Of a stretch of 27,679 nt of DNA, positions 1,321 to 25,211 are shown in pieces. Numbering within the stretch: the first letter of the stretch is position 1; every line of letters starts with the position of its first letter. Location: the IMG/VR virus record IMGVR_UViG_3300009184_004198, positions 1 to 27,679 of that record. One strand, written 5' to 3'. The position numbers were made by a program, and so were the translations under genes. The DNA comes from a virus. The notes under the pieces were generated by a model. It worked only from the letters and a program-made list of their open reading frames with translations. It had not been told where the DNA came from and made no database searches.

Positions 1321-1323
1321 GGC

Positions 1324-3363: not shown

Positions 3364-3374
3364 CCCCAAAGTTT

Positions 3375-5114: not shown

Positions 5115-5116
5115 AT

Positions 5117-5147: not shown

Positions 5148-5151
5148 TAAA

Positions 5152-5664
5152 ATGAATATCTTTTTTTTGGATTTGGACATTGAAAAATGCGCAAAGTATC
5201 ATTGTGACAAGCATGTTGTTAAGATGATATTGGAAACTGCTCAGTTATTATGTGGAGCACATCACATGACCCACCAAGTACCGACCAAGTACCCACCAAG
5301 TACCGACCAAGTACCGTACAAGTTATCACATAAGAATCATCCTTGTGCAATATGGACACGTGAGTCACTGTCTAACTATTTGTATCTATGTGAACTTGGA
5401 TTGGAGTTATGTAAAGAATATACTTACAGATATGGAAAACGTCATAAGTCTCAGGATGTTATTGAATGGTGTGTCACAAATAAGTTAAACATTTGTGACA
5501 AAGGTTTTACTGAACCACCCAAGGCAATGCCTGACGAGTATAAAGTAAATGACGTTGTTGAATCATACAGAAATTATTATCGTGGAGCCAAGTCAGGTTT
5601 TGCGGTATGGAAAAATAGAGAAACACCAAGTTGGTATAAAACAGAAAAATATGTCGTGTTGTAA
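5152..5664 (+). CDS. Conserved phage protein of the MN-FFLD...DKHVVKMI family
   Basis: 170 residues. The N-terminus MNIFFLDLDIEKCAKYHCDK, followed by HVVKMILETAQLL, and the later HPCAIW, YLCELGLELCKEYT, PPKAMPDEY and a C-terminal RNYYRGAK...W motif match a protein family common in large and marine phages that I know only as uncharacterised. Conserved Asp, His, Cys and Trp residues suggest an enzyme, perhaps metal dependent, but I cannot name an activity. A run of 11-bp repeats adds a Pro/Thr/Tyr-rich stretch at about residues 42-55. The gene has a host-type promoter 4 nt before the ATG and overlaps the following gene by 14 nt. Confidence 0.75.
   Translation: MNIFFLDLDIEKCAKYHCDKHVVKMILETAQLLCGAHHMTHQVPTKYPPSTDQVPYKLSHKNHPCAIWTRESLSNYLYLCELGLELCKEYTYRYGKRHKSQDVIEWCVTNKLNICDKGFTEPPKAMPDEYKVNDVVESYRNYYRGAKSGFAVWKNRETPSWYKTEKYVVL
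5274..5317 (+). repeat. Four tandem copies of an 11-bp repeat inside a gene
   Basis: The unit CCAAGTACCGA occurs four times in succession, with one changed base in copy 2 and one in copy 4. Three extra units add 33 bp, which keeps the reading frame, although each unit is read in a different frame. The encoded stretch is HQVPTKYPPSTDQVPYK. This looks like a recent slippage expansion. Confidence 0.85.
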
Positions 5665-5812
5665 AGAATGTCCGTATAAGGTTGATAACAACCACAATAG
5701 AAAGTTAAGAGAATTTACTGAAAGAACAGGAAGGAAACATACTTGTCATATGGTTAATCCAAAACTATGGGATACAAGTAATGAAAAAGAAATGTGTAAA
5801 AATTTTGACTAA
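5651..5812 (+). CDS. Small Cys-rich, probable zinc-binding phage protein
   Basis: 53 residues starting MSCCKECPYKV, with later THRK-type basic residues, CHMVNPKLWD and MCKNFD. The CC-x2-C and downstream C-H and C spacing suggests one zinc site. Similar short proteins starting with CKECPW/Y and continuing NKHN...F...HNCHM are frequent in phages; function unknown. The ATG at 5651 overlaps the preceding gene by 14 nt, so translation is probably coupled. A longer frame from 5549 would overlap the preceding gene heavily and is rejected. Confidence 0.72.
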   Translation: MSCCKECPYKVDNNHNRKLREFTERTGRKHTCHMVNPKLWDTSNEKEMCKNFD

Positions 5813-5835
5813 TCAGTATTTATTTTGTATCTTTG
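5805..5835 (+). promoter_or_regulatory. Bacteroidetes-type promoter for the second RNA block
   Basis: TTG (5805-5807), exactly 20 nt, then TATCTTTG (5828-5835). Transcription would start about 10 nt before the tRNA-like element at 5853. It overlaps the stop region of the preceding gene. Confidence 0.65.
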
Positions 5836-5852
5836 TAAAAGAATCGAGGATT

Positions 5853-5957
5853 ACTCAGGTGGCGGAAGTGATACTAATGCATTAGTTCGATGGAAAGACG
5901 CTAGGGTAACCTACCCGAGTCAGAAATGACATGAAGGTTCAAGTCCTTCTCTGAGTA
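5853..5957 (+). tRNA. tRNA-like element 4 with palindromic D-loop insertion and abnormal anticodon arm
   Basis: Acceptor ACTCAGG/TCTGAGT with discriminator A5957 and T arm GAAGG-TTCAAGT-CCTTC. The D arm GCGGAA...GACGC is enlarged by about 20 nt containing the perfect palindrome ACTAATGCATTAGT. The anticodon region can fold as GGG-TAACCTA-CCC with an A at the position of the invariant U33, or as TAGG-GTAA-CCTA closed by a GNRA tetraloop; neither is a normal decoding arm. The variable arm is GTCA-GAAA-TGAC, another GNRA hairpin. It has its own host-type promoter and is close in sequence to elements 2 and 3. Isotype undetermined; Leu-derived by its D arm. Confidence 0.55.
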
Positions 5958-6051
5958 CTAACCGTTACTGAATAAGTAACAACCCAACCAAGGGCAATAC
6001 GGGCTCATACCTGTGGAGCAAGGTGACGGTCAGGAAAGACTGACAATATAT
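5958..6051 (+). ncRNA. Structured spacer between tRNA-like element 4 and tRNA-Met
   Basis: ACCGT near 5961 and ACGGT near 6027 can close a domain with GTTAC-TGAATAA-GTAAC, CCC-AACCAA-GGG and ACCT...AGGT around the string GTGGAGCA; a separate hairpin GTCAG-GAAAGA-CTGAC follows. It resembles the spacers of the first RNA block in having GGAGCA in a hairpin loop. Function unknown. Confidence 0.35.
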
Positions 6052-6126
6052 TGTGGGATGGAGAAGATGGTCAATCTCGTGACTCTCATAAGGTCAAGGT
6101 CGCAGGTTCGAATCCTGCTCCCGCAA
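6052..6126 (+). tRNA. tRNA with CAU anticodon (Met or Ile2)
   Basis: Acceptor TGTGGGA/TCCCGCA, D arm GAGA...TCTC, anticodon arm TGACT-CTCATAA-GGTCA with anticodon CAT, T arm GCAGG-TTCGAAT-CCTGC, discriminator A. The 1-72 pair is T-A, so it lacks the unpaired 1-72 of initiator tRNA. Elongator Met or lysidine-modified Ile cannot be told apart here. Confidence 0.9.
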
Positions 6127-6128
6127 CT

Positions 6129-6242
6129 AAAAGATAGAAGTAAGTTTCACCTGTTGCAGGCGACATAAAGTAAGATTCACAACTTGACTGGTCGTTACTT
6201 CTTATAGTGGAAAATGTGGACACTATAAGCTATCTTTTTTTA
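6129..6242 (+). ncRNA. Compact structured ncRNA ending in a T-run
   Basis: About 110 nt between tRNA-Met and tRNA-Glu. An outer helix AAAGATAG (6130-6137) with CTATCTTT (6230-6237) encloses two arms: AGAAGTAA (6136-6143) with TTACTTCT (6195-6202), and TATAGTG/CACTATA (6203-6227). The first arm contains CCTG-TTG-CAGG, CGAC/GTCG and AAGT/ACTT helices. Two near-repeats, GTAAG-TTTCAC and GTAAG-ATTCAC, lie inside. A run of T follows the outer helix, so the element could also end transcription, but tRNAs continue 4 nt later. No known RNA family is recognised. Confidence 0.5.
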
Positions 6243-6245
6243 TTT

Positions 6246-6320
6246 GTCGCGTTAGATTAGCTGGTTTAAATCGTCGCCCTTTCACGGCGAAGACCATCGG
6301 TTCGAATCCGATACGCGATA
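6246..6320 (+). tRNA. tRNA-Glu(UUC)
   Basis: Acceptor GTCGCGT/ACGCGAT (first pair G-U), D arm GATT...AATC, anticodon arm TCGCC-CTTTCAC-GGCGA with anticodon TTC, T arm ATCGG-TTCGAAT-CCGAT, discriminator A. CCA is not encoded. Confidence 0.92.
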
Positions 6321-6326
6321 CTACAT

Positions 6327-6408
6327 TGTGGTGTTGAGCAATTGGTTGGCTCGCCTGTCTGTAAAACAGGTTCCTATGGACTTGGCGGTTCGAGTCCGTC
6401 CACCACAA
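6327..6408 (+). tRNA. tRNA-Tyr(GUA)
   Basis: Acceptor TGTGGTG/CACCACA, D arm GAGC...GCTC, anticodon arm CCTGT-CTGTAAA-ACAGG with anticodon GTA, a 13-nt variable arm as usual for bacterial tRNA-Tyr, T arm GGCGG-TTCGAGT-CCGTC, discriminator A. Confidence 0.92.
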
Positions 6409-6670
6409 CAAACAAACCTTACAGAAGACGGATTAGCACCGTTGAAAGAAACCTTGGCTTCACCGTGGAGTAGCTACCACAACCGAAGTTTAAATGCCCC
6501 AAGGTAAGCTGTGATGGACCCTGCTCTGTGTGGCCACACAACAGGTGAACAGTAAATTATGTTCAGTCAAATCTACAACTACGGTGAACGTAGATGGTTT
6601 GTTAAAATTAAATAACCAACTTTAAAAAGGGCCCTTCCTGAAATATTGGCTCGCTGAGCCCGAGTTTGTT
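6409..6670 (+). ncRNA. Long structured RNA between tRNA-Tyr and a strong terminator
   Basis: About 260 nt without a credible CDS. Helices include GTGG-AGTAGCTA-CCAC, the palindrome TGTGTGGCCACACA (which can close as TGTGT-GGCC-ACACA), TGAACA-GTAAATTA-TGTTCA, ATCTAC...GTAGAT and GGCTC-GCT-GAGCC. It is immediately followed by an intrinsic terminator, consistent with a defined 3' end processed from the tRNA transcript. It does not show the conserved regions of RNase P RNA or tmRNA that I would expect. Confidence 0.45.
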
Positions 6671-6704
6671 AAACCCCATTCCAAAAGAGTGGGGTTTTTT
6701 ATTT
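6671..6704 (+). terminator. Intrinsic terminator of the second RNA block
   Basis: AACCCCA (6672-6678) pairs with TGGGGTT (6690-6696) over an 11-nt loop, followed by a run of T. Confidence 0.85.
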
Positions 6705-6710
6705 ATAATT

Positions 6711-6720
6711 GTATTTATTA
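6711..6720 (+). promoter_or_regulatory. Candidate late promoter, TATTTATT variant
   Basis: GTATTTATTA ends 4 nt before the ATG at 6725; same orientation and distance as the other motif copies. Confidence 0.45.
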
Positions 6721-6724
6721 TAGA

Positions 6725-7042
6725 ATGAGATATCTAATCACAGAATCACAAATAGAAAAGATAGTGTTTAAGTATCTTGACAATCAGGATTTTATTAATA
6801 TGGAATATGGGACATATGAATATTTTCTTAATTCAAAAGATGATAATTATGCTCAAATTAAATTTAATACAAGCAGCCGTTGGTGTACAATTGAAAGAAA
6901 ATTAATGTTTGAAATTGCTTCTTTCTTTTCTTTAGAATACCATGATGCGATGTCACTCATTGCTAGATGGGTTGAGAGAAAAATCGGATTAGAATTTAAT
7001 ACCATTGAGACCCAATCGGATATAATTGTGTATTATTTTTAA
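6725..7042 (+). CDS. 105-residue protein with N-terminal LITE tag
   Basis: The ATG at 6725 is chosen because it gives MRYLITESQIEKIVFKYL, matching the N-terminal tag of the proteins at 3375-5114 and 10533-11795, and because it follows the late-type motif by 4 nt; the start at 6689 lies in the terminator. The remainder is mixed alpha/beta with TSSRWCTIERKLMFEIASFF and RWVERKIGLEF; no family is recognised. The tag and promoter suggest a late, perhaps virion-packaged protein (inference). Confidence 0.65.
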   Translation: MRYLITESQIEKIVFKYLDNQDFINMEYGTYEYFLNSKDDNYAQIKFNTSSRWCTIERKLMFEIASFFSLEYHDAMSLIARWVERKIGLEFNTIETQSDIIVYYF

Positions 7043-7064
7043 ATAATATTCACAACAAAACAAA

Positions 7065-7183
7065 TTACCTTATAGTTATTAATGAAACCTTGTTGCTGAG
7101 GTCCACCTGTTCTTTGAGACAGTTGAGTTGGAGAAATACCAACGAAGTGGGGTTCAATAAACATAAACAATAAAATAAGGTAA
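7065..7183 (+). promoter_or_regulatory. Structured 5' leader of the gene at 7188
   Basis: TTACCTTAT (7065-7073) pairs perfectly with ATAAGGTAA (7175-7183), which ends 4 nt before the ATG. Inside, TTATT/AATAA and ACC/GGT extend the closing helix, CCAC/GTGG closes a junction, and CTGT...ACAG and GTTGG-AGAAATA-CCAAC form two arms. This architecture would hide the ribosome entry region and looks like a regulatory leader. Part of it (7079-7094) is also exactly complementary to the 3' UTR. Confidence 0.5.
7079..7094 (+). repeat. 16-bp inverted repeat, left copy (leader)
   Basis: TTAATGAAACCTTGTT is the exact reverse complement of 8036-8051. The pair flanks the gene at 7188-8027 and both arms lie in its transcript. 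Confidence 0.85.
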
Positions 7184-7187
7184 AAAA

Positions 7188-8027
7188 ATGTATTACACAG
7201 AACTCAAGAAGTTTCCGTCGGCTCATATTACGACAGGGAAACAAAGATTAAAACAAAACGGCTCAAACGTTTATCTTAAAGATGGGGAAGAATTTGAAGT
7301 AGAAATCTTCAACCCAAAATCAAATTCAGTTTTAGCGAAAATAAAAATCAATGGAAATTACCTATCAGGTGGTGGAATTATTATCCGACCTGGTCAAAGG
7401 GTATTCTTGGAAAGATATTTGAACGAAGCAAGGAAGTTCAAATTTGAGGTGTATGAGGTTAACTCATCATCAAAGGAAGTCCAAGAAGCAATCAAAAACA
7501 ATGGTGAGGTTATCGTTGAATTTTATGATGAGAATGTTTATTTCAATAACCCAACTATAACGTTGGCAGGTACTAATAGTACTTGGACTGGTAGTATGAC
7601 CACTACAACCACAGGTAAGTATAGTATAACTTTGGGAGAGAATACTAAGTATTATAACACAAACGTTAATTTAACATCTAACAGTAATACCTTCGCAGGT
7701 GATTCAAATGCTTTTTATACAAACTATTCCGTACCTATCAATAGTGTTGATTATAACACATCACAAAACCTAAAAAAGTCTTTACAAACTGACAGGTTCA
7801 AAGAGACAGGTCGTGTTGAGAAGGGTGGTGACTCAAAACAGGAGTTCACATCTGTTAATATGGATTTCAATTCTTATCCATCATCATATTCAACTTGGAG
7901 ATTAATGCCAATGTCAGAGAAACCTGTTGAGGTGAAAGAGGTGAATGTTCTTTATTGTTCCAATTGTGGAAGTAAAAGAAAGAAAGACAAACATAAATTC
8001 TGTCCACACTGCGGAACAAAATTCTAA
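7188..8027 (+). CDS. Probable virion-surface protein with C-terminal zinc ribbon
   Basis: 279 residues. Residues about 30-90 (DGEEFEVEIFNPKSNSVLAK, then GGGIIIRPGQRVFLERYL) belong to a conserved beta-rich module that I recall from phages and giant viruses, of unknown exact function. A low-complexity Asn/Thr/Ser-rich region follows (about 125-225). The C-terminus is a zinc ribbon, C-x2-C-x13-C-x2-C (YCSNCGSK, FCPHCGTKF). Probably a structural or decoration protein. It is preceded by a structured leader, flanked by the 16-bp inverted repeat, and followed by a strong terminator. No late motif lies directly upstream, so it may be transcribed with the gene at 6725. Confidence 0.65.
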   Translation: MYYTELKKFPSAHITTGKQRLKQNGSNVYLKDGEEFEVEIFNPKSNSVLAKIKINGNYLSGGGIIIRPGQRVFLERYLNEARKFKFEVYEVNSSSKEVQEAIKNNGEVIVEFYDENVYFNNPTITLAGTNSTWTGSMTTTTTGKYSITLGENTKYYNTNVNLTSNSNTFAGDSNAFYTNYSVPINSVDYNTSQNLKKSLQTDRFKETGRVEKGGDSKQEFTSVNMDFNSYPSSYSTWRLMPMSEKPVEVKEVNVLYCSNCGSKRKKDKHKFCPHCGTKF

Positions 8028-8035
8028 AAATAAAT

Positions 8036-8051
8036 AACAAGGTTTCATTAA
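8036..8051 (+). repeat. 16-bp inverted repeat, right copy (3' UTR)
   Basis: AACAAGGTTTCATTAA lies 8 nt after the stop codon and directly abuts the terminator; exact reverse complement of 7079-7094. Confidence 0.85.
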
Positions 8052-8078
8052 GCCCCATCAATTGATGGGGTTTTTCTA
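8052..8078 (+). terminator. Intrinsic terminator
   Basis: CCCCATCA pairs with TGATGGGG, followed by TTTTT. Confidence 0.85.
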
Positions 8079-8085
8079 TTTGAAT

Positions 8086-8095
8086 GATATTTATA
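8086..8095 (+). promoter_or_regulatory. Candidate late promoter, ATATTTAT motif
   Basis: GATATTTATA, 14 nt before the ATG at 8110 and just after the preceding terminator, consistent with a new transcription unit for the two wall-active genes. Confidence 0.5.
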
Positions 8096-8109
8096 CATAA
8101 ACTAAAATT

Positions 8110-8706
8110 ATGTCATACACAAGAGAACAAGTGGAAACTGCTGTAAAATCAAAGGGATACGTTTGGTTTGAAGACACGGCTAACAAAGGTTACGATGTTA
8201 ACATCATTGGAATTAGAAACAGTGCAACTGGTCAAAAGGTTACAAATGCTTTTGATGATTATTTAACCATCTCTTACAAAGAGAATGGACAATGGAAGTT
8301 TCACATTTGGCCGGCAACCACTGACCCGGGTAAGAAGGGTGTGATGGAATACCACAACAAAGATGGTGTTGCTCGATTGGTTGAGGGACAATATCGTGGT
8401 TCACACATTATCAGATTACATCAGGGTAAATATGAAGCGTTAGGTCAGGATAAACCCGTTAAAGTTTATCGTGATGCCAACAAGGATATGACTTATGATG
8501 AGAACAAAATCACTGAAGGTGTTTATGGTATTAACATTCACAAGGCAGGTGCTGATTCAACGTATGTTGAGAATTGGTCTGAAGGATGTCAGGTATTCAA
8601 GAAGTCTGCGGACTTTGAAGAGTTTATGAAGATTTGTCGTAAATCAAAAGATATTCATGGGAATAGATTTACATATACATTAATTGAAACAAAAGATATA
8701 GTATGA
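8110..8706 (+). CDS. Probable YkuD/L,D-transpeptidase-like cell-wall enzyme
   Basis: 198 residues, no signal peptide. The C-terminal part contains GVYGINIHKAG, about ten residues, then NWSEGCQVF; the His and the S-x-G-C spacing match the H...S-x-G-C catalytic motif of YkuD-fold enzymes, in which the Cys is the nucleophile. The earlier part (KFHIWPATTDPG, ARLVEGQYRG) is compatible with the sheet of this fold. Such proteins in phages act on host peptidoglycan, as hydrolase or transpeptidase. It overlaps the next gene by 4 nt (ATGA), and that gene encodes a papain-like protein, so the two may work together on the wall. Confidence 0.6.
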   Translation: MSYTREQVETAVKSKGYVWFEDTANKGYDVNIIGIRNSATGQKVTNAFDDYLTISYKENGQWKFHIWPATTDPGKKGVMEYHNKDGVARLVEGQYRGSHIIRLHQGKYEALGQDKPVKVYRDANKDMTYDENKITEGVYGINIHKAGADSTYVENWSEGCQVFKKSADFEEFMKICRKSKDIHGNRFTYTLIETKDIV

Positions 8707-9218
8707 TAGATTTAAGTCAGTTTAAAACAGGTGACGTTCTACATTGTCGTGGACGTAAGTTAATTAGTAAATTAATTCGTTGGGCCACCAAATCTCAAAT
8801 TAACCACACCGCATTATTCATTTGGATATGGGATGAACTTTATGTTATTGACGCTCAAGATAATGGTGTTAATGTTAAACCGTTTGATGCATGGGTTAAC
8901 GAATATCATTATGATTTTATTGTAATGAGAAGACCTAGAGTAATTGCTGAAAAGAAAATAGCAACAAAGGCTATGAGTAAAGTTGGATTAACTGCCTATG
9001 ACTTTGAGGGATTGTTAATTAAACAACCTATTGAATTACTAACTGGTAAGTGGAACAAGAAAAAAGAAAAACACGAAGAAGACAAAATGTATTGTTCTGA
9101 ATTTGTATCTTGGGTGTATGGTTTAGACGATTCTTATAGAATGTCACCAAAAGATTTCTTGGACTATTGTTTGGAAAATAGTTGGGATGAGATTTACAAT
9201 ACTGGGATTAAAATATGA
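8703..9218 (+). CDS. Permuted papain-like (YiiX/NlpC-P60-type) hydrolase
   Basis: 171 residues. TGDVLHCRGRKLISKLIRWA followed by NHTALFIW supplies the conserved GD and the His of the circularly permuted NlpC/P60 superfamily, and MYCSEFVSWVYG supplies the Cys. Lipid- or peptidoglycan-directed amidase or peptidase activity is the family expectation. The start codon overlaps the stop of the preceding gene. The 3' end overlaps the convergent gene by 11 nt. Confidence 0.7.
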   Translation: MIDLSQFKTGDVLHCRGRKLISKLIRWATKSQINHTALFIWIWDELYVIDAQDNGVNVKPFDAWVNEYHYDFIVMRRPRVIAEKKIATKAMSKVGLTAYDFEGLLIKQPIELLTGKWNKKKEKHEEDKMYCSEFVSWVYGLDDSYRMSPKDFLDYCLENSWDEIYNTGIKI

Positions 9219-9879
9219 ATTTGTGATTAAAGACTACATAAACATCTGAATCGTAGTCTATTAAACGGGAACGACTGTGAAAAAAGGATATAACTTCCTC
9301 AAACTCAAGACCATCCCTGAAAGAGTCATATAACTCATCTTCATTTTCGTATAATTTAAAAAAATCATTTTTTATATCAGATGACTCAAATCCATCTACA
9401 CTTAAAAAAGTAATTTTAACTATATCATTTACTATTATTTCAGTTTCATAATTTGAAACACCAGTAAACTTTGCTGAATAATTAATATCAATTATTTCAT
9501 CATTAAATGTTCTAAATTTTATACTACTTTCTTTATTATTTTCATATATATCTAAAACTATTTTAGTATCCTCATTGTTTAAATAAACTTCATTTTTATC
9601 TAAATCAGTATAAAAATTAATATGAGACATTAATATTTTAAATGTTTCATAATTGACACTAGAATTTACAAATTTAGAAAAGTTATAAACAAGTTCTTCT
9701 ATTGAGCCAATTTGATTTATCCTAGTTGTACTAACATCAGCAATATTATCGGTATATATATTAAGTTTTTCAAAATTGTTATAAGGTTCTACCATATACT
9801 TGATACCATCTATTACTATAGAACCTTTTGGGAAGTTAGATTTATAAAACAGACTTAACAATTTTTTATTTAGAGACAT
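9208..9879 (-). CDS. Unknown protein, 223 residues
   Basis: Starts MSLNKKLLSLFYKSNFPKG and is acidic, Asn- and Asp-rich and predicted alpha/beta, with no motif I recognise. It has a minus-strand late-type motif (9885-9892) 5 nt before the ATG. It converges on the wall-enzyme pair, overlapping by 11 nt. Like the other minus-strand genes here it may be a late virion-associated gene; the tag of the other minus-strand genes is absent. Confidence 0.6.
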   Translation of the reverse strand: MSLNKKLLSLFYKSNFPKGSIVIDGIKYMVEPYNNFEKLNIYTDNIADVSTTRINQIGSIEELVYNFSKFVNSSVNYETFKILMSHINFYTDLDKNEVYLNNEDTKIVLDIYENNKESSIKFRTFNDEIIDINYSAKFTGVSNYETEIIVNDIVKITFLSVDGFESSDIKNDFFKLYENEDELYDSFRDGLEFEEVISFFHSRSRLIDYDSDVYVVFNHKFIF

Positions 9880-9884
9880 ATTAG

Positions 9885-9892
9885 ATAAATAT
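9885..9892 (-). promoter_or_regulatory. Candidate late promoter, ATATTTAT motif (minus strand)
   Basis: ATAAATAT on the plus strand, reading ATATTTAT towards the start at 9879. Confidence 0.5.
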
Positions 9893-9940
9893 ACTTAAAA
9901 AAAAATTAGTATAATGGGATGGGAATATTAATATATTCAC

Positions 9941-9948
9941 TATATTTG
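9941..9948 (+). promoter_or_regulatory. Bacteroidetes -7 element, leaderless start
   Basis: TATATTTG, then 4 nt and the ATG at 9953. No TTG lies at the expected position upstream, so only the -7 element is supported. Confidence 0.45.
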
Positions 9949-9952
9949 TACT

Positions 9953-10531
9953 ATGAAAAGAATACTATCGACAATAATCGTCCTAATCGTAACAATCCAA
10001 TTTTATGGACAGACGATTGATGTCAATAATTTTGATGAGAAATTATTTGAGAAAATACTTTTCCATGAAATGATTGAGTTCCGTAAATCTATCGGTAAAG
10101 ATTCGTTGGTATGGTCAGATGTTTTGTATTCTAATATTTCAAAATCAAATACCCAAAAAATGATTGATGAGAATAAATTATTTCATCCTGACCAATCAGA
10201 TATTTGGACAATTGATTTAAAAAACAAATTGGGTGATGAACTTGTAGATAAACAAAAAGTTAAAATTTTTAAATCACAATTCAGTGGACCAATGTTTTCA
10301 ACATCAGAAATCGCTGCTAAAATACCTGTTAGTTTTGTAACTACGTATGAAGAATTGGCTGTCCGAGTTATTAAAGGTTGGGATGGTTCAGAATATCACA
10401 GTGAGATTCAACGAATGAAGATGACTAATGACGGAGGGCTTGCTATGGCAAGTTGTTCTGTAAAACTATCAAAAGATAAGAAAAATTTCTTTATCGAATT
10501 TGATTTTTCAATACCGTATTGTATTGAATAA
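9953..10531 (+). CDS. Secreted CAP (SCP/PR1)-like protein
   Basis: 192 residues with signal peptide MKRILSTIIVLIVTIQFYGQ, cleaved near Gly-Gln in Bacteroidetes style. The mature part has the layout of a CAP domain: EMIEFRKSIGKDSLVW near the start, a His in KLFHPDQ, TTYEELAVRVIKGWDGSEYH (the W...S.YH block), GGLAMASCSV and a final FFIEFDFS strand. It lacks a lipobox, so it should be periplasmic or secreted. CAP proteins have varied or unknown biochemical roles. The promoter predicts a leaderless, host-transcribed mRNA. The convergent OmpA-like gene starts at its 3' end with a 1-nt gap. Confidence 0.65.
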   Translation: MKRILSTIIVLIVTIQFYGQTIDVNNFDEKLFEKILFHEMIEFRKSIGKDSLVWSDVLYSNISKSNTQKMIDENKLFHPDQSDIWTIDLKNKLGDELVDKQKVKIFKSQFSGPMFSTSEIAAKIPVSFVTTYEELAVRVIKGWDGSEYHSEIQRMKMTNDGGLAMASCSVKLSKDKKNFFIEFDFSIPYCIE

Positions 10532-10532
10532 C

Positions 10533-11795
10533 TTACTTTGTTTTATAGGTTTTACTAAATGTAGGTAAAACTACTGTATATCTACGGTTTGGTAATGTTT
10601 CGTCTTTAGTTGCATTTGGCCACTTCTTACCCATTGCAAATTCTTCAGTTTCACCAACACCAACTGGTTTAAATGTTATCCCTGAATTTACACTAAAAAA
10701 GTCAGGTAACAATTTTTTAAGTTCATTAACTACATTCTGAGCTCTTGCCTGTGATAGACACTGATTGTATGCCTTTCTTGTTTGATTTGGCTTATTACAT
10801 GCGGTATATCCACCTGTCATGATTGCGTCAGATTTCTCATCAATAGATGCGTAAGCATTAACAGTAATCGTTTGACCTTTTAAACTATTTAAATAGTCTT
10901 GATATAGTTTAGGTGAACTTGTTTTTTTATCTGTAAATTGTTTTGCGAAGTTGTTTAACAATTTAATACCCTCACCTGATAAATCTGCACTATCATAAGC
11001 GAATGGGTCACTTATAGCATCCCCAATTTGTAATGGTACAAACTCTTCTGTTTCATTAGTTGTTGGTATATTTTTCTCTGTTGAGTATGCTGGTCTATAT
11101 GGGTTTCCTGAATTTAAAGTTACCGCATAAGTTTTTTCGAAATCTTTAAATTCAATATTTTTATTAATCAAATCAACAAACCATTTTATTTCATTAAATT
11201 GTTTTTTATTTGAAACTACGTACATATCCTTGAACCCAATTTCAGGTATTGTAACTATGGTTTTAGGACTTTTACCTTGAATTACCTGTCCTTCTGTCTG
11301 TTTGGACATTCCAGGATATATTCCTATAAACTCTGGAGTTTTATTAACACTAATTCCTACTGCAAATGCAATTGCTCTAGTTTCGTTAGGTTTTATCTCT
11401 GATTGGTCGGCTCTTACATAGGTAAGTATTGACTTTAAAAGTTTTTCTTTAGTTGGTATTTCTCCTTCAGCAATTTTCCCATCCGCATCATAAATCAAGT
11501 CTTTACCTAAAACTAACATGTCATCATTCAAGAATACCCCTTTCGTTACATCAAATTTTAAATTAGATAAATCACCATTGTAAGAAACGATAGGATTATA
11601 ATCTCTATCTATAAATATAATGTTTTGTCCCTGAACAACTACACTCCAACCTGCAAATCTATAATTTTCATATGGTTCTTGAGAAGTATTGGTTGATGTG
11701 GTGGTAGTTAAATCTTGTTCAATCATTAAACCTTTTTTTGAGTATAAATCCAATATTTGTTTTTTCTCTTCTTCGGTAATTAAAAATCTTTTCAT
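10533..11795 (-). CDS. OmpA-like protein with N-terminal LITE tag
   Basis: 420 residues starting MKRFLITEEEKKQILDLYSK, the clearest form of the tag shared with 3375-5114. The C-terminal 160 or so residues form an OmpA/MotB-type domain: SADLSGEGIKLLNNFAKQF, ITVNAYASIDEKSDA, CLSQARAQNVVNELKKLLPD and TLPNRRYTVVLP. Such domains bind the diaminopimelate stem of peptidoglycan. No signal peptide is present, which argues for a virion or intracellular protein rather than an outer-membrane protein; a tail or injected protein that touches peptidoglycan is inferred. The late-type motif is 11 nt upstream. Confidence 0.7.
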   Translation of the reverse strand: MKRFLITEEEKKQILDLYSKKGLMIEQDLTTTTSTNTSQEPYENYRFAGWSVVVQGQNIIFIDRDYNPIVSYNGDLSNLKFDVTKGVFLNDDMLVLGKDLIYDADGKIAEGEIPTKEKLLKSILTYVRADQSEIKPNETRAIAFAVGISVNKTPEFIGIYPGMSKQTEGQVIQGKSPKTIVTIPEIGFKDMYVVSNKKQFNEIKWFVDLINKNIEFKDFEKTYAVTLNSGNPYRPAYSTEKNIPTTNETEEFVPLQIGDAISDPFAYDSADLSGEGIKLLNNFAKQFTDKKTSSPKLYQDYLNSLKGQTITVNAYASIDEKSDAIMTGGYTACNKPNQTRKAYNQCLSQARAQNVVNELKKLLPDFFSVNSGITFKPVGVGETEEFAMGKKWPNATKDETLPNRRYTVVLPTFSKTYKTK

Positions 11796-11805
11796 AATTT
11801 TTTAT

Positions 11806-11815
11806 ATATAAATAC
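11806..11815 (-). promoter_or_regulatory. Candidate late promoter, TATTTATAT variant (minus strand)
   Basis: The minus strand reads GTATTTATAT before the start at 11795. Confidence 0.45.
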
Positions 11816-11871
11816 TTTTAAAGTATAATTATTTTCTTTACAAAATAAATTTAAAAACTTATAATTTGAAC

Positions 11872-12225
11872 ATGAAAAAATATCTTACACTTAAAAACTT
11901 AGGTTGGTTGTTAACGGCAATTGTAACCTTTATGCTCGGTATGGGCGGATTATCAAAGATTACGGGAAGCGAAGCGATGACCGAAAACTTCACCGCAATG
12001 AACATGTTACCTTACATGGCTCTTGTTGGGGTTATGGAAGTCGCAGGAGTTATTGCTCTTTGTATTCCAAGAACATCTGTTTATGGAGCTTTAACATTAT
12101 CTTCTGTTATGTCAGGAGCGGTTGCAGTTCACATTGCAATGTTTGGAGGAGCGGGAATATTGGTACCAATTTTCTTAGGAGTAGCTGCTTGGTCAGGACA
12201 TTGTTTGAGAACTTACACCAAATAA
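11872..12225 (+). CDS. DoxX-like integral membrane protein
   Basis: 117 residues from the ATG at 11872; an in-frame TTG at 11866 adds only two residues. Four hydrophobic segments are visible: GWLLTAIVTFMLGMGGLSK, MALVGVMEVAGVIAL, ALTLSSVMSGAVAVHIAMF and ILVPIFLGVAAW. The first helix followed by G-G-x-x-K and the second helix with G-V-M-E fit the DoxX/DoxD-like family. Base composition is richer in GC than the neighbouring unknown genes, suggesting a host origin. Its role in infection is unknown; membrane redox or quinone-related functions are known for the family. A terminator follows. Confidence 0.7.
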   Translation: MKKYLTLKNLGWLLTAIVTFMLGMGGLSKITGSEAMTENFTAMNMLPYMALVGVMEVAGVIALCIPRTSVYGALTLSSVMSGAVAVHIAMFGGAGILVPIFLGVAAWSGHCLRTYTK

Positions 12226-12245
12226 AACATAATGACACCAAAACT

Positions 12246-12270
12246 AACCCCTCCATGTTGAGGGGTTTTA
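12246..12270 (+). terminator. Intrinsic terminator
   Basis: ACCCCTC-CATGTT-GAGGGGT followed by TTT after the DoxX-like gene. Confidence 0.85.
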
Positions 12271-12280
12271 ATTATTATTA

Positions 12281-12290
12281 ATATTTATTA
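12281..12290 (+). promoter_or_regulatory. Candidate late promoter, ATATTTAT motif
   Basis: ATATTTATTA, 9 nt before the ATG at 12300 and just after a terminator. Confidence 0.5.
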
Positions 12291-12299
12291 AATAAAAAA

Positions 12300-13142
12300 A
12301 TGGAAGATAGAGAATTGGCCAAAGAAATGAATTTATTGAGATTCCCAATAACTGATGATAAAGGGGAGAAATTATTTAGAATTTTAGGGAACGTTGAAAT
12401 ATCAATTAGTGTTGTCATGTACAATGATTTTGCGGTAGTAGAACCAGCGGATAACAAGACACCAATAAAACGACCAATAATTAACTACAAAGAAATGTTA
12501 AATTCTGGTGTACTCCTATCTCAAAAATTTGAGTCCGATGAAAATGGGGAAGTGGTGATTAATTTGACAAACATGTTATCCACTAAAAATTTCTTAAAGT
12601 TAATAAACACATATCAAAATAAATATTCATTCGTTCTTAGGGTTAAATTTAGTATTTTTAAAACTGATAAATTTTATCCTTATGATGAAATAATCACTAG
12701 CCCATTTGAATATAATACTGATGAAAATAGTGATATAACATTTAATGAAATATTATTTGACAGTATAACTTTAGAAAGTTTGGACGTTAAATATTCACTA
12801 TCAGAACTTAAAAGTGAATTAAGAAACATTGAAGATTTATATACAATAACTAAAAGTAATATAGAACAAAAAATTAGTTTATCGGATAAAGAAATTGAGA
12901 TAGTTACTGAAGATTATGAACCAGTAAATTTCAATTATGTTGTAACAAGATTATTGGAATTCAAAGAAGGTACATTAAACCCAGGTTTAATTTTTTGTGA
13001 ACAGTTTGGTTTAAAAAAAGAATTAGACATTTTGAAAACATTTGATAGATGTATATTAAGAATGACACAACTTTATCCAAACGTAACAATAGATGATGGT
13101 GAGGGTATTCCGTATTCAGGACCAACTAGAGCGGAATTTTAA
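12300..13142 (+). CDS. Unknown protein, 280 residues
   Basis: Starts MEDRELAKEMNLLRFPITDD. Acidic, rich in Asn, Asp and Ile, predicted beta-rich in the first half and helical after about residue 165 (LSELKSELRNIEDLYTITKS). No known motif is recognised and there is no signal peptide or membrane segment. It follows a terminator and a late-type motif, and is followed by a lipoprotein gene and then another unknown gene with a late-type motif. A virion protein is possible from context only. Confidence 0.65.
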   Translation: MEDRELAKEMNLLRFPITDDKGEKLFRILGNVEISISVVMYNDFAVVEPADNKTPIKRPIINYKEMLNSGVLLSQKFESDENGEVVINLTNMLSTKNFLKLINTYQNKYSFVLRVKFSIFKTDKFYPYDEIITSPFEYNTDENSDITFNEILFDSITLESLDVKYSLSELKSELRNIEDLYTITKSNIEQKISLSDKEIEIVTEDYEPVNFNYVVTRLLEFKEGTLNPGLIFCEQFGLKKELDILKTFDRCILRMTQLYPNVTIDDGEGIPYSGPTRAEF

Positions 13143-13185
13143 TCCCTCCAAGTTATGGGTTTGTTTTTTAATTATATTTACAGAT

Positions 13186-13563
13186 ATGAAAAAGATATTT
13201 TTATTTATAACTATTTTATTTACTTCTTGTGCTAGTTTTGAGAATCTAACTGATGATAGACATAGACCTGAAGACGATGAATGTTATTGGATTCCTGGTG
13301 AGGAATTCTATATAACAAAAAGACCTGAGTCGTCAGAAGAATATGGTAATCGTAATGTAGTTATACCTCCATCTCTTAGTCGAGACTTCTCACCAACTTA
13401 TTATCGTCCGTATTACAGTAACTATCCTGTGTATCATAATACACCACAACCAATATATAATCCTCCAAGACCTCAGACCCAACAACAAGGACCTGTGAAC
13501 AAACCCACAAATAACAGAAGTGGTGGGACAACTCCAAAAGTGACTCATATTAAAAGACCCTAA
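13186..13563 (+). CDS. Proline-rich small lipoprotein
   Basis: 125 residues from the ATG at 13186; the longer frame from 13093 overlaps the preceding gene and is rejected because the 13186 start yields the lipoprotein signal MKKIFLFITILFTSC with lipobox FTSC. The mature protein has an acidic segment (DDRHRPEDDECYWIPGEEF), then a Tyr/Pro/Gln/Asn-rich tail (YYRPYYSNYPVYHN, PPRPQTQQQGP) ending in basic residues. It would be anchored in the envelope with a flexible tail. TATATTTA lies 11 nt upstream and is close to the host -7 consensus. Function unknown. Confidence 0.72.
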   Translation: MKKIFLFITILFTSCASFENLTDDRHRPEDDECYWIPGEEFYITKRPESSEEYGNRNVVIPPSLSRDFSPTYYRPYYSNYPVYHNTPQPIYNPPRPQTQQQGPVNKPTNNRSGGTTPKVTHIKRP

Positions 13564-13565
13564 GG

Positions 13566-13575
13566 AATATTTATA
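13566..13575 (+). promoter_or_regulatory. Candidate late promoter, ATATTTAT motif
   Basis: AATATTTATA, 6 nt before the ATG at 13582 and directly after the preceding stop. Confidence 0.5.
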
Positions 13576-13581
13576 TTACAT

Positions 13582-14148
13582 ATGAAACCTGTTGATAAAT
13601 TTGTCATTGAATATTTAAGACGTGAATATAACATACCACACGATGTGGTTATTGACATTAAAAGTGACCCATCCTCTTCTGTTAAAACTATGAACTTTAA
13701 ATTTGATTTAACTAAAGTCGATGTGAATAGCGGGGAATCTGAAAATTGGTATAGAGATTTTTTTTTACAACCCAAAAATCTGAAAGGTATGGGTGCCTTT
13801 TTATATAATTGGGGAAAAAGAATTGAAGGTAAAATTCAAGATTTGTTTAAAATTACCAAAATAAAACCTGAATACTATAGAGTAATCAACGAACCTGTTA
13901 ATTATGGATTTTTGGAAAAAGTTGGTAATAAAATTGAGGAAGCAATTAAAAAAACCGAGTTCCCGAATTTAACCATTGAGTTTTCAAAAGATAGTGAACC
14001 TGATATTAAATTATTATTTAGGGGTTTTACAACAGAACAATTTGAAGATAAAGATGCATTTAAAGAATTTACAAGACAATTGAAAGACGTTCTTGGTAGT
14101 GAACTTGATTTATCACCTTACCAACTCGCATACACAAGAGGAAGATAA
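13582..14148 (+). CDS. Unknown protein, 188 residues
   Basis: Starts MKPVDKFVIEYLRREYNIPH. Mixed alpha/beta with many Lys, Glu and Phe; no signal peptide, membrane segment or recognised motif. A late-type motif precedes it. A host-type promoter for the next gene begins directly after its stop. Confidence 0.62.
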   Translation: MKPVDKFVIEYLRREYNIPHDVVIDIKSDPSSSVKTMNFKFDLTKVDVNSGESENWYRDFFLQPKNLKGMGAFLYNWGKRIEGKIQDLFKITKIKPEYYRVINEPVNYGFLEKVGNKIEEAIKKTEFPNLTIEFSKDSEPDIKLLFRGFTTEQFEDKDAFKEFTRQLKDVLGSELDLSPYQLAYTRGR

Positions 14149-14151
14149 TTC

Positions 14152-14182
14152 TTGATTTATCCATTTTTATTTATTATCTTTG
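14152..14182 (+). promoter_or_regulatory. Bacteroidetes-type promoter
   Basis: TTG (14152-14154), 20 nt, TATCTTTG (14175-14182), then 10 nt to the ATG at 14193. It probably also drives tRNA-Met and tRNA-Leu(UAA). Confidence 0.65.
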
Positions 14183-14192
14183 TAAAAGAAAT

Positions 14193-14531
14193 ATGAAACT
14201 ACTATTAGGAATGTTAGTCGGGTCACTCGCTCAAGTACTGACTTTCTTACAACTACAGGGAAGATGGAAGTTTGAGTGGATGAGAAATAACCAGTGGTTG
14301 GTTGTGTTGATGGGTATTCCGATATCAATTTTGTTTATGACATCAGTTAGTTTGATGGTCCAACACTTCGACGGACAGTTGTGGCCATCAAGATTGATAG
14401 GGTTTGTTATTGGTACAATAATGTTTACAATTTTGTCAGTTACATTATTTGGTGAACCAATAACAATTAAAACTGGTGTATGTTTAATATTGAGCTTGAT
14501 GATATTGATGGTACAATTGTTTTGGAAGTAG
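14193..14531 (+). CDS. Four-helix small membrane protein
   Basis: 112 residues with hydrophobic segments at about 3-20 (LLLGMLVGSLAQVLTFLQ), 34-54 (NQWLVVLMGIPISILFMTSV), 69-88 and 93-111. The motif GQLWPSR-FIGF-like (here GQLWPSRLIGFVIG) and the final FGEPITIK before the last helix resemble small-transporter-like proteins that I recall from large phages; I cannot name a substrate. The gene has its own host-type promoter and lies 4 nt upstream of a tRNA gene, so mRNA and tRNAs may be processed from one transcript. Confidence 0.68.
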   Translation: MKLLLGMLVGSLAQVLTFLQLQGRWKFEWMRNNQWLVVLMGIPISILFMTSVSLMVQHFDGQLWPSRLIGFVIGTIMFTILSVTLFGEPITIKTGVCLILSLMILMVQLFWK

Positions 14532-14535
14532 TGAA

Positions 14536-14609
14536 GCGCCCTTAGCTCATTAGGTTAGAGCAACTGACTCATAATCAGTGGGTGACAGGTTCGATTCCTG
14601 TAGGGCGCA
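14536..14609 (+). tRNA. tRNA with CAU anticodon (Met or Ile2)
   Basis: Acceptor GCGCCCT/AGGGCGC, D arm GCTC...GAGC, anticodon arm ACTGA-CTCATAA-TCAGT with anticodon CAT, T arm ACAGG-TTCGATT-CCTGT, discriminator A. It differs strongly from the CAU tRNA at 6052, so the two probably serve different codons or roles. Confidence 0.92.
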
Positions 14610-14686
14610 CAAAACGTTCTTTTTTTAATGGCTGAGTGATGAAATAGGTATACATGCGAGACTTTGAGATATATTCTAGTTTATTA

Positions 14687-15994: not shown

Positions 15995-17854
15995 ATGGGA
16001 AAAATTATAGGAATTGACTTAGGTACAACAAATTCGTGTGTTGCGGTCATGGAAGGCTCGGAGCCTGTTGTAATTACAAACAGTGAAGGAAAAAGAACCA
16101 CCCCTTCAATTGTGGCATTTGCAAATGGTGGTGAAAGAAAGATTGGTGACCCCGCTAAAAGACAGGCAGTAACTAATCCTGAGAAAACAATATCATCTAT
16201 TAAGCGTTTTATGGGAACTGGCTTTGATGAAAGTAAAAGTGAAGTTAATCGTGTTCCTTACAAAGTGGTAAATAGTAAAGGTACACCACGTGTTAAGATT
16301 GATGATAAAGAGTACTCACCACAAGAATTATCTGCGATGGTTCTTCAGAAGATGAAACAAACTGCTGAAGATTACTTGGGTAGTGAAGTGACTGAGGCAG
16401 TTATCACCGTACCTGCATACTTCAATGACGCTCAACGTCAAGCGACAAAGGAAGCTGGCGAGATTGCGGGATTAACAGTTAAACGTATTATTAATGAACC
16501 AACCGCTGCGGCACTTGCTTACGGATTGGACAAACAATCTAAAGATATGAAGATTGTTGTGTTTGACTGTGGTGGAGGGACTCACGACGTATCAGTGTTG
16601 GAACTTGGTGATGGAGTATTCGAAGTATTATCAACTGATGGTGACACTCACCTTGGTGGTGATGACTTTGACCAAGCGATTGTTGATTGGTTGGTGAAAG
16701 AATTCCAAGATGAGAATGGATTGGACTTGACTAAGGACCCAATGGCTCTTCAACGTTTACGTGAAGGAGCTGAGAAGGCTAAGATTGAATTGTCATCTTC
16801 ACCATCTACGGAAATTAACTTACCATATATTATGCCTGTTGACGGTGTCCCAAAACACTTGGTTCGTACTTTATCAAAATCAAAGTTTGAACAACTTGTT
16901 GACACTTTGGTTCAAAGAACAATTGAACCTTGTAAAAAGGCAATGACTAACGCAAATCTTACTGTTGGTGATATTGATGAAATCATTTTGGTTGGAGGTT
17001 CAACACGTATTCCGGCAATTCAGGAAGCGGTTAAGAAGTTCTTTGGTAAGGACCCATCAAAAGGTGTTAACCCTGATGAAGTTGTTGCGTTAGGAGCGGC
17101 AATTCAAGGTGGGGTACTGGCAGGTGATGTTAAGGATGTATTGTTGTTAGACGTTACACCACTATCACTTGGTATTGAAACAATGGGTGGAGTGTTCACA
17201 AAGTTGATTGATGCTAACACAACCATCCCAACCAAAAAGTCACAGGTATTCTCAACGGCAGTTGATAACCAACCATCTGTAGAGATTCACGTATTACAAG
17301 GTGAGAGAGCGATGGCGAAAGACAACAGAACCATTGGTCGTTTCCATTTGGATGGTCTTCCACCAGCAATGAGAGGTATTCCACAGATTGAGGTTACATT
17401 TGATATTGACGCTAATGGTATCATTAATGTATCGGCTCTTGACAAGGGAACCAACAAACAACAAAACATTCGTATTGAGGCGTCATCAGGACTTTCGAAA
17501 GAAGAAATTGAAAAGATGAAACAAGAAGCTGAGATGAATGCTGACGAGGATAAAAAAATGAAAGAGGAAGTTGAGACAATCAACACTGCTGACAATACAA
17601 TCTTCCAAGTTGAAAAGGCTTACAAAGACATTGAAGATAAATTAACTGAAGAGCAAAAGAACGATATTGATTCATCGTTGAATGATTTAAAAAATGCAAA
17701 ATCAGAAAGAAACATCGATTTGATTAAAGAGTCAATGGAAAAAGTTAATACAACTTTCCAAAAGATTTCTGAGGTCCTATACTCGAATTCTGGTCAGGAT
17801 AACCCTGATGTTGAAGTTTCTGATGTTGATTTTGAAGAAGTGAAATCAAACTAA
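15995..17854 (+). CDS. dnaK: Hsp70 chaperone DnaK
   Basis: 619 residues, close to full length. The ATPase domain has [70 protein letters not shown] and [13 protein letters not shown]; the substrate-binding domain has [17 protein letters not shown], the linker, and a helical lid; the C-terminus ends in an acidic tail ([14 protein letters not shown]) rather than the EEVD-like or Gly-rich tail of many homologues. The GGGTHD form and [10 protein letters not shown] are typical of flavobacterial DnaK as I recall, pointing to acquisition from a host. No DnaJ or GrpE gene is in the window, so host co-chaperones would be needed. It may assist virion assembly or replication under stress. Confidence 0.97.
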
Positions 17855-18694: not shown

Positions 18695-19522
18695 ATGAAA
18701 GACACAAAAACTTACAATGAATTAGTCCAAAAAATGAGGACATTTTTCCAATCAAAAGGATTTAAAGAAGTTCCAACACAATCGAGATTATCAATCTTAG
18801 CCGCATGTGAAAATCCACACTCAATAACAACATTCAATTATCAGGGAGAGGTTTGGCCATTACCACAAACAGGACAAATGTGGTTAGAATACGAACTCCT
18901 TAAAAATCCTGAATGGAATGGTGTTTACTGTATATCAACATCCTACAGACAAGAAAAAGACCCAATCCCTGGCAGACATGAATTAATTTTCCCAATGTTT
19001 GAATTTGAATCAAAAGGTGGAATGAAAGAAATGATAAAACTTGAATCAGAACTTTTAGACTATTTAGGTTTTGATAAACCTATTGAGGTTAACTACGACG
19101 ATGTTTGTGAAGAATATGGTGGAGTTCCAATTTTAGAAAATGAACATGAGACAAGAATGTGGGAAGAAAAAGGGTCAGTAGTCTCTCTTCAAAATTTCCC
19201 TTATAGAACAAATCCATTTTGGAATATGAGAGAGAGTGAAAATAGAATATTCAATAAGGTTGACGTAATTCTTTACGGTCAAGAAACAATTGGTTCGGCA
19301 GAAAGAAGTTCTAATGTGGAAGAAATGAGAAATAACTTTTACACAATTGAGAATGGTGGATATTCTGCTAAGTTGTTTGAACTATTCGGAAAAGAAAGAG
19401 TTGAAAAAGAATTGGAAGAATTCTTATCACATGACTTCTTCCCACGTTTTGGTGGTGGAATCGGAATGACAAGACTTGCCAGAGCTTATCAGTTAATGAT
19501 GGAAGAAGTTGAGGCTTTTTAA
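18695..19522 (+). CDS. Stand-alone class II aminoacyl-tRNA-synthetase-like enzyme (Asp/Asn/Lys group)
   Basis: 275 residues comprising only a catalytic core. Motif 2 is ISTSYRQEKDPIPGRHELIF with FPMFEFE following (the Arg...H-E-x-x-x-F-E pattern), and motif 3 is GGGIGMTRLARAYQLM with the Arg that binds ATP. LPQTGQMWLEYELLKN matches the substrate-site block. There is no OB-fold anticodon-binding domain. Related stand-alone cores include AsnRS paralogues that act as asparagine synthetases and EpmA-type ligases that modify proteins, so amino-acid activation is probable but the acceptor is not known. It lies after a terminator, 38 nt upstream of the endolysin gene. Confidence 0.8.
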   Translation: MKDTKTYNELVQKMRTFFQSKGFKEVPTQSRLSILAACENPHSITTFNYQGEVWPLPQTGQMWLEYELLKNPEWNGVYCISTSYRQEKDPIPGRHELIFPMFEFESKGGMKEMIKLESELLDYLGFDKPIEVNYDDVCEEYGGVPILENEHETRMWEEKGSVVSLQNFPYRTNPFWNMRESENRIFNKVDVILYGQETIGSAERSSNVEEMRNNFYTIENGGYSAKLFELFGKERVEKELEEFLSHDFFPRFGGGIGMTRLARAYQLMMEEVEAF

Positions 19523-23696: not shown

Positions 23697-23912
23697 ATGA
23701 AGAAATTTTTTAATTGGTTTTGGTTGGTATTTTACTGTTTGTTACCAATCTATTTTATTGTAATTTTATTGGTATCGGCGTTTGGAGGATATCAAATAAG
23801 TGAAATGATTGATTACAATTGGTGGTTATTCTTTTTCGCATTTGAGATTTGGTTTACTTCTGTTGGTTCAAAAAGAATTGAAGATGGTTGGGAAAAAATA
23901 AAAGGGGAATAA
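23697..23912 (+). CDS. Small membrane protein, 71 residues
   Basis: MKKFFNWFWLVFYCLLPIYF begins a long hydrophobic segment, then a loop (GGYQISEMIDYN) and a second, Trp- and Phe-rich helix (WWLFFFAFEIWFTSV), ending in a charged tail. Two membrane helices. It precedes the truncated start of the cREC-like gene by one nucleotide. Function unknown. Confidence 0.6.
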   Translation: MKKFFNWFWLVFYCLLPIYFIVILLVSAFGGYQISEMIDYNWWLFFFAFEIWFTSVGSKRIEDGWEKIKGE

Positions 23913-23913: not shown

Positions 23914-23943
23914 ATGAAGATTTATTTGGACGATGTTGTTTAA
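23914..23943 (+). pseudogene. Stranded 5' end of the cREC-like gene, cut off by the GIY-YIG insertion
   Basis: ATG followed by codons for MKIYLDDVV and a stop. The first eight residues match residues 3-10 of the intact gene downstream (RIYLDDVR), but with different synonymous codons (TTG GAC against CTA GAT). It is best read as the ancestral start of that gene, now separated by the 780-bp homing endonuclease gene. Confidence 0.65.
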
Positions 23944-23958
23944 TTTTTAATATTTTGG

Positions 23959-23969
23959 CATATTTATTA
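23959..23969 (+). promoter_or_regulatory. Candidate late promoter of the GIY-YIG gene
   Basis: CATATTTATTA, 4 nt before the ATG at 23974, identical to the copy before 22750. Confidence 0.5.
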
Positions 23970-23973
23970 TTAA

Positions 23974-24756
23974 ATGATGAATATTAAAAAAAAATCCGGA
24001 ATATATAAAATAACAAATATCGTAAATGATAAGGTTTATGTTGGAAGCGCTGTAAATATTGATTATAGATTTAAGACACATAAAAGATTATTAAAGGGTA
24101 ATAAACATTTTAATAATCATCTACAATCGTCTTATAATAAAAATGGTAAAGATAATTTTAGATTTGAAATTGTTGAGTTAGTTAATGAAGATACTTTATT
24201 GGAAAGAGAAACCTTTTGGATATCTTATCTGATGGCTAATAATCCTGATTATGGTTATAATAAGAGACTTATAGTTAATAGTAATTTGGGTATTAAGTTA
24301 TCTGATGTGACTAGAAAAAAATTGAGTGAAAGTCATTTAGGTCATAAAAGGACAGATGAAGCCAACAAAAAAATAATTGAATCTCAGTATAAAATAATTT
24401 GTCAATTTGATACGCAAGGAAAATATATTAGGAGTTTTAGTAGTCTACAAGAGGCGGCTTGTTTTTTAAATGTTAAATATACGACATCTATAACTGCATG
24501 TCTTAAAAAAAGATTACCATCGGCTCTTGGATATGCTTGGTGTTATGAAGATGAGAAAGAAACTTTCAAACCTGAACCATTAAAACGTACAACTACTAAA
24601 AAAATAAAAATAAAAGTAACTTGTATTTTAACTGAAAAAATTACTATATTTGAATCAATAAATGACGCTTCAAAAAATTTAAAAATTTCGTGGAATATGA
24701 TTAACAAAGCTTTTGAAAAAAAACAATATAAAAATTTAATATGGGAAAAGATTTAA
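23974..24756 (+). CDS. GIY-YIG homing endonuclease
   Basis: 260 residues (ATG 23974 or 23977). The catalytic domain has SGIYKITNIVNDKVYVGSA (GIY...YVG), a following Arg/His block (YRFKTHKRLL) and the Glu in LERETFWISYL. NUMOD3-type repeats follow (GIKLSDVTRKKLSESHLGHK), then NUMOD1-type DNA-binding segments (ICQFDTQGKYIRSFSSLQEA, and a second near the end). Lower GC and different codon use from its neighbours support recent entry. It sits between the stranded start and the intact copy of the cREC-like gene; its stop overlaps that gene's ATG (TAATG). Confidence 0.92.
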   Translation: MMNIKKKSGIYKITNIVNDKVYVGSAVNIDYRFKTHKRLLKGNKHFNNHLQSSYNKNGKDNFRFEIVELVNEDTLLERETFWISYLMANNPDYGYNKRLIVNSNLGIKLSDVTRKKLSESHLGHKRTDEANKKIIESQYKIICQFDTQGKYIRSFSSLQEAACFLNVKYTTSITACLKKRLPSALGYAWCYEDEKETFKPEPLKRTTTKKIKIKVTCILTEKITIFESINDASKNLKISWNMINKAFEKKQYKNLIWEKI

Positions 24757-25211
24757 TGGGGACACGAATTTATCTAGATGATGTTCGCACACCGAAGGAC
24801 AAGGACTGGATGGTTGTAAGAAACTACCACGAGTTTGTGAATTTGGTACAGAAAATTGGGATTAAGAATATCTCAACCATTTCATTGGACCACGACTTGG
24901 GTGATAGTGCTATGATTGAGTACCATACCAATGTGTCACCTAACTTCAAATTGGATTATGCGAACATCAATGAAAAGACTGGTTACGACGCATCTAAGTT
25001 CTTGGTTGATGAGTTCTATTCTCAATATCCTGAAAGATTGGAGATGAATCATTTTGACAAGAAGAAGGAACCAATAATGTTTCCAATTGTTTTGGTTCAT
25101 TCAGCTAACCCTATTGGGTCAGCAAATATGATGGGGTACATCAACAACTTTTTGATGAACGAATCGAAACCACAAACCTGTGTTAGACACACAATACCTC
25201 ACACCGTATGA
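24756..25211 (+). CDS. cREC-like (cyclic-phosphate-processing receiver domain) protein
   Basis: 151 residues from the ATG at 24756, which overlaps the GIY-YIG stop. RIYLDDVRTPKDKDWMVVRN and ISTISLDHDLGDSAM give the receiver-like fold with acidic residues LDD and LDHD, as I recall from cREC proteins, which have been predicted to act in RNA repair on cyclic-phosphate ends; a catalytic role is not established. The middle insert (YHTNVSPNFKLDYANINEKT) is longer than in minimal domains; MFPIVLVHSANPIGSANMMG forms the last strand and helix. It overlaps the next gene by 4 nt. Confidence 0.7.
   Translation: MGTRIYLDDVRTPKDKDWMVVRNYHEFVNLVQKIGIKNISTISLDHDLGDSAMIEYHTNVSPNFKLDYANINEKTGYDASKFLVDEFYSQYPERLEMNHFDKKKEPIMFPIVLVHSANPIGSANMMGYINNFLMNESKPQTCVRHTIPHTV

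Follow-up and report, generated by a model that had tools for sequence, protein, structure and literature searches.

A probable GIY-YIG homing element that interrupts phage cREC genes in their first codons and very probably brings a replacement start

Introduction

Introns and inteins are regarded as the main vehicles by which homing genes enter conserved genes without harm. The locus described here lies in a viral contig of 27,679 nt (IMG/VR record IMGVR_UViG_3300009184_004198; hereafter the window, meaning this whole stretch) and raises the question of how a gene can accommodate an endonuclease within its first codons where neither an intron nor an intein is apparent. Our data suggest that the invaded gene gets a new beginning: the insert is very probably a GIY-YIG homing element, free-standing and specialised for cREC genes of phages at their 5' ends, that brings a replacement start with it.

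Anatomy of the interrupted gene

All features of the locus are on the plus strand. The native upstream neighbour, a gene for a 71-aa small membrane-like protein (23697..23912) that is also the neighbour in empty relatives, is followed by a stranded original cREC start (23914..23943; ATG AAG ATT TAT TTG GAC GAT GTT GTT TAA, MKIYLDDVV*), which comprises MKIYLDDV, one element-derived codon (GTT) and the TAA stop, and which aligns with the intact starts of the uninterrupted loci L003-L015. The element thus sits after codon 8 of the cREC_REC gene. Its left end and leader (GTTTAATTTTTAATATTTTGGCATATTTATTATTAA; 23938..23973), of which the GTTT is common to every left end in the window's clade, lead into a 260-aa GIY-YIG homing endonuclease (23974..24756). 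The last codons of the endonuclease (W-E-K-I-stop; 24741..24756) are dual-coded, and in the other frame they form the beginning of a replacement N-terminus (ATGGGAAAAGATTTA, MGKDL). A second possible start is the ATG (24756..24758) of a TAATG overlap, which is found only in the window, L016 and L019 (as ATGA). After the TAATG (24754-24758) the sequence reads GGG ACA CGA ATT TAT CTA GAT GAT GTT CGC ACA CCG, in which CGA to GTT (24765..24785) are the replacement RIYLDDV codons carried on the element. The initial annotation had described both the stranded MKIYLDDV with its stop beside a GIY-YIG gene and a downstream stretch coding the same residues with silent changes (TTG GAC to CTA GAT); both stand as described, and the empty loci L003-L015 agree with the former.

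The target (24741..25211) encodes a cREC_REC (cyclic-phosphate processing receiver) protein of 156 aa from ATG 24741, with a PF20274 domain (1.3e-19) that contains the LDD acidic motif; the protein is MGKDLMGTRIYLDDVRTP if read from ATG 24741 and MGTRIYLDDVRTP if read from ATG 24756. The predicted role of such domains is the processing of cyclic phosphates, of RNA or of ADP-ribose, during conflict between phage and host (PMC7824862). Because a second contig (L002) repeats the identical arrangement at 99.9% identity, an assembly error is unlikely. Two related cREC copies are present in L067, and a distant second copy lies ~2 kb upstream in L058.

The endonuclease has a GIY-YIG catalytic domain (23995..24225; Pfam PF01541 above cut-off, 7e-11) in which the catalytic residues are kept, and two NUMOD1 stretches, the better of which (24394..24504; PF07453, 3e-13) marks a DNA-binding module. 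Its catalytic part matches the I-TevI structures 1mk0/1ln0 (E 3e-13), and residues Y11, Y22, R32, E79 and N96, invariant in four relatives, are the counterparts of the five catalytic residues of I-TevI. A second, different GIY-YIG gene is found in L019 (2104-2784), ~1.4 kb upstream of the element.

Empty alleles and recurrence at cREC genes

With the cREC protein as query, IMG/VR yielded 80 loci. In the closest uninterrupted ones (L003-L015) the same upstream gene runs directly into a cREC start that reads ATG AAR ATW TAT TTR GAY GAT GTN, then CGC or AGA, then ACA CC, with a slightly different first codon in L007. The single start of empty relatives equals the stranded one, and since L003-L015 match the stranded start of the window, the latter is the original start with the element placed after its eighth codon. 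BLAST of filled loci against insert-free relatives gave two blocks that overlap by ~17-18 bp within the duplicated stretch, as for an insertion at a fixed site in otherwise uninterrupted alleles. For L002 vs L010 identity is 86% as far as 3026 and 88% from 3857 onward, and for L019 vs L034 it is 93.5% as far as 4165 and 86% from 5004 onward.

Filled alleles were found in 14 distinct lineages in IMG/VR, and the endonuclease always lies between LDDx and R of a cREC gene. Related endonucleases occupy this place in L016 (93% aa), L019/L020/L022 (80% aa) and L058 (68% aa), where the upstream genes are partly different, and searches with an endonuclease alignment and a stranded-start DNA pattern added L085, L086, L087-L089, L090 (with L385/L386/L412), L091, L186/L196, L191, L207, L221 and L235. 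In all filled lineages [Y/F/W]LDDx precedes the element and a second [Y/F/W/C]LDDxR start follows it; in L091 the stranded motif now reads LFLVNI through decay. Because the window's clade has shared descent, the 14 lineages do not represent as many fully independent origins. LDD corresponds to the acidic motif that is conserved in receiver folds, presumably a typical kind of conserved site for a homing enzyme to target; the endonuclease would cut the empty allele at the conserved YLDDxRTP-coding stretch and home into it. A pattern scan of genome contigs gave no new filled locus, plasmids gave no match, and no cultured phage among the matches listed had the window's element at its cREC gene. 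The nearest cREC gene among those matches belongs to Flavobacterium phage immuto (52% aa); another CDS immediately precedes it, and the annotation shows no endonuclease at that place.

Movement between lineages and co-transfer of the start

When 73 distinct cREC genes are placed on a tree, filled and empty ones are interspersed (the window with L003; L019 with L018/L021/L028/L034; L058 with L051), and the endonucleases group separately. The clearest pair is L058 and L221, which share 95% of endonuclease DNA, 97% of the left leader and 96% of the replacement start, whereas their cREC DNA past the junction is only 48-65% identical, showing that the element has passed between phage lineages that are well separated. 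Among L058, L085, L086 and L221 the replacement RIYLDDV stretch is 92-100% identical, and at residues invariant in these four loci codon identity is 0.93 for the replacement start compared with 0.56 for the remainder of the gene (P=0.00035), which argues that the replacement start travels with the element. Co-transfer is not always complete, since the replacement starts of L186 and L191 differ although their endonucleases show no protein difference across the aligned domain (the L191-L186 row of the pairwise comparison, all zeros, was an artefact of an incomplete fragment and was left out). At the level of sequence, comparison thus establishes the anatomy, the empty and filled alleles, the recurrence at one site, the transfer across targets and the co-transfer of the start, together with the relics described below.

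An embedded start codon and relic elements

Every filled locus of the window's clade has an ATG within the last codons of the endonuclease, where an Ile or Leu codon, with AT-A or T-A at its end, runs into TGG (ATA TGG, CTA TGG, TTA TGG), and this ATG is kept even though the endonuclease residue varies. In the distant loci L235, L087-L089 and L091 the target start also lies inside the endonuclease frame. What remains of the endonuclease in three relic lineages, L017, L249 (with L268 and L311) and L253, is its last 20-55 nt, in which an ATG is in frame with cREC and the similarity to the endonuclease tail reaches E values down to 2e-18; a 30-nt match to the middle of the endonuclease upstream in L249 was treated as chance. 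The cREC N-termini of the relics come from the tail of the lost endonuclease (MGENL in L017, MGENLKGY in L249, MGKNLISY in L253). The initial annotation had placed the new start at an ATG overlapping the endonuclease stop, and the TAATG at 24754-24758 is indeed present, but conservation favours ATG 24741: the relics keep it, L058 has no ATG other than the embedded one, and the TAATG occurs in only part of the clade. On these comparisons ATG 24741 is a better candidate than ATG 24756 for the start that would be used.

Origin of the silent differences and alternative explanations

The initial annotation took the new 5' end to be probably resistant to cleavage by the element itself. On such a reading selection would have recoded the replacement start to keep the endonuclease from cutting the right junction, with protection as the main role of that start; this reading is compatible with a homing element that brings a start and would add to it, and we regard it as possible but somewhat short of probable. 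Silent changes do exist between stranded and replacement copies, an unrecoded right junction would recreate the target site, and the GIY-YIG enzyme I-BmoI is reported to be capable of discriminating alleles by one base pair (in a reference cited in PMC3943268). In the window's clade the Arg codon is CGN in 10/10 replacement starts vs 4/49 empty genes and the Leu codon CTN in 9/10 vs 15/47, and these first-base switches were retained while third positions drifted. However, over the five codons (15 nt) of YLDDx the stranded and new copies differ by a mean of 3.5 nt, no more than mismatched loci (3.85; permutation P=0.93) or random pairs of unrelated intact genes (3.99), so that no excess of synonymous recoding within loci was found, and in L058 the two copies differ by 1 nt of 15. 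The silent differences therefore need no special explanation beyond foreign origin. The downstream copy, called a recoded duplicate in the initial annotation, did not arise in place but is a foreign 5' end carried along by the element. An unchanged right junction would restore the cut site, which makes selection against cleavage there plausible, but shared descent of the elements accounts equally well for the common Arg and Leu codons.

A further proposal could be a self-splicing insert, such as a group I intron, that contains the endonuclease, in which splicing joins MKIYLDDV to RTP, as the frame across the insert would allow, and the second RIYLDDV is accidental. This is highly improbable, and is excluded as far as sequence allows: the Rfam search of the region matched neither group I nor group II introns (for group I introns, at E values up to 5), the endonuclease ORF takes up 783 of ~848 nt and leaves little room for a ribozyme core, the second start is kept in every filled locus, and relics that have no 5' exon still keep it. 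RNA structure was looked for at both junctions and not supported at either (z -0.78 and 0.14). Free-standing phage homing genes often adjoin genes, so the endonuclease might merely have landed beside a gene with a native alternative start arisen by chance, the gene start degrading and nothing being carried, but there is very little to recommend this, since empty relatives have the single start equal to the stranded one and replacement starts are more alike among elements than are the genes that they serve.

Proposed mechanism

We return to the homing element that brings a replacement start. The endonuclease would cut an empty allele at the stretch coding YLDDxRTP, and repair off a filled genome would place ~850 bp between LDDx and R, with the right end of the element bearing its own version of the first codons of the target. 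The endonuclease would then be expressed behind the original start region and presumably the original promoter, and the target would be read from an ATG in the last codons of the endonuclease to give a full protein with a slightly altered N-terminus, while the original start would persist as a stranded ORF of a few codons. Since the element brings a substitute beginning for the invaded gene, that gene probably survives; the claim that a replacement 5' end is supplied, already made in the initial annotation, is borne out by the comparison of empty and filled alleles, by the co-transfer of the start and by the relics. As the target would now depend on the 3' tail of the element, any later deletion that spares the target must retain that tail, and the relics fit this expectation. 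A TAnnTTTG motif lies 27-30 nt 5' of the stranded YLDD codons in L058 and L086 only, and 14/53 empty relatives have it no more than 100 nt from the gene, which is no more than suggestive of a captured promoter.

Candidate elements of this kind at other genes

Carrying a replacement end for the target is likely a general property of a class of phage GIY-YIG elements that has so far gone unrecognised, judging from a scan of 103 GIY-YIG loci for a protein segment common to both flanks and a second scan of 79 more loci, in which mismatched-locus controls scored up to 37. Candidates scoring 47-115, with the start of the next gene stranded upstream of the GIY-YIG gene and a second start downstream, are helicases in L115 (4001-4747), L589 and L119 (4004-4777), a RuvC-like gene in L107 (3998-4657) and a gene of unknown function in L109 (1267-1830). 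L638 also scored in this range. A 5'-3' exonuclease locus (L113, 2855-3667) has a weaker score of 39, and a ribosome-binding stretch is also shared there. Candidate 3' versions in the same score range, in which the upstream gene would have a new C-terminus and the native one would be stranded past the endonuclease, are an exonuclease in L112 (4001-4648) and an SbcC-like ATPase in L143/L144; the stranded native C-terminus of L143 is frameshifted. In several candidate loci the replacement start overlaps the endonuclease stop.

Relation to known systems

The nearest known counterparts are the mobile ORFs of fungal mitochondria (Allomyces atp6; Glomus atp6, atp9, cox2 and nad3), endonuclease elements with a foreign, mostly synonymous copy of the severed end, which carry foreign C-terminal ends and leave the native ones stranded (PMC3630166). 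The foreign copy and the stranded native end are found here too. The fungal elements, however, are mitochondrial, mostly encode LAGLIDADG enzymes and mostly act at the 3' end with the new C-terminus before the endonuclease, whereas the element described here is at the 5' end of a phage gene and has the start codon of its target inside the last codons of the endonuclease. One survey notes the duplication of a free GIY gene together with the atp9 N-terminus (PMC7487136), without the anatomy of the phage element. The Seg proteins of T4-like phages belong to the same nuclease superfamily and, as here, are intronless and lie beside phage genes, but a term search of a T4 review (PMC2988022) found no description of carried replacement gene ends. 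The same kind of search in a phage nuclease survey (PMC10448857) showed no phage case of a replacement end, nor did the open-access literature searched; an earlier description elsewhere is possible. I-TevI has a similar catalytic domain but is intron-encoded, and no intron was found here.

Engineered home-and-rescue drives, such as that of PMC7968924, likewise restore the target with the homing element's own version, but they are synthetic, CRISPR-based and used in animals, so that the analogy is one of logic only. The phage element may be a natural counterpart of such gene drives, and resistance of a rescue copy to cutting could therefore be tested on natural allele sets. The target gene would not easily shed the tail of the element, and gene starts, and with them N-termini, would be swappable between phages, leaving relic footprints that annotation misses.

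Other genes of the window

The viral contig also carries a full-length Hsp70 (DnaK-like) gene (15995-17854), a gene for a short class II aminoacyl-tRNA synthetase-like protein (18695-19522) and six tRNA genes (from 1202 to 14610). A protein with a CHU_C type IX secretion domain (1309-2901) points to a Bacteroidota host.
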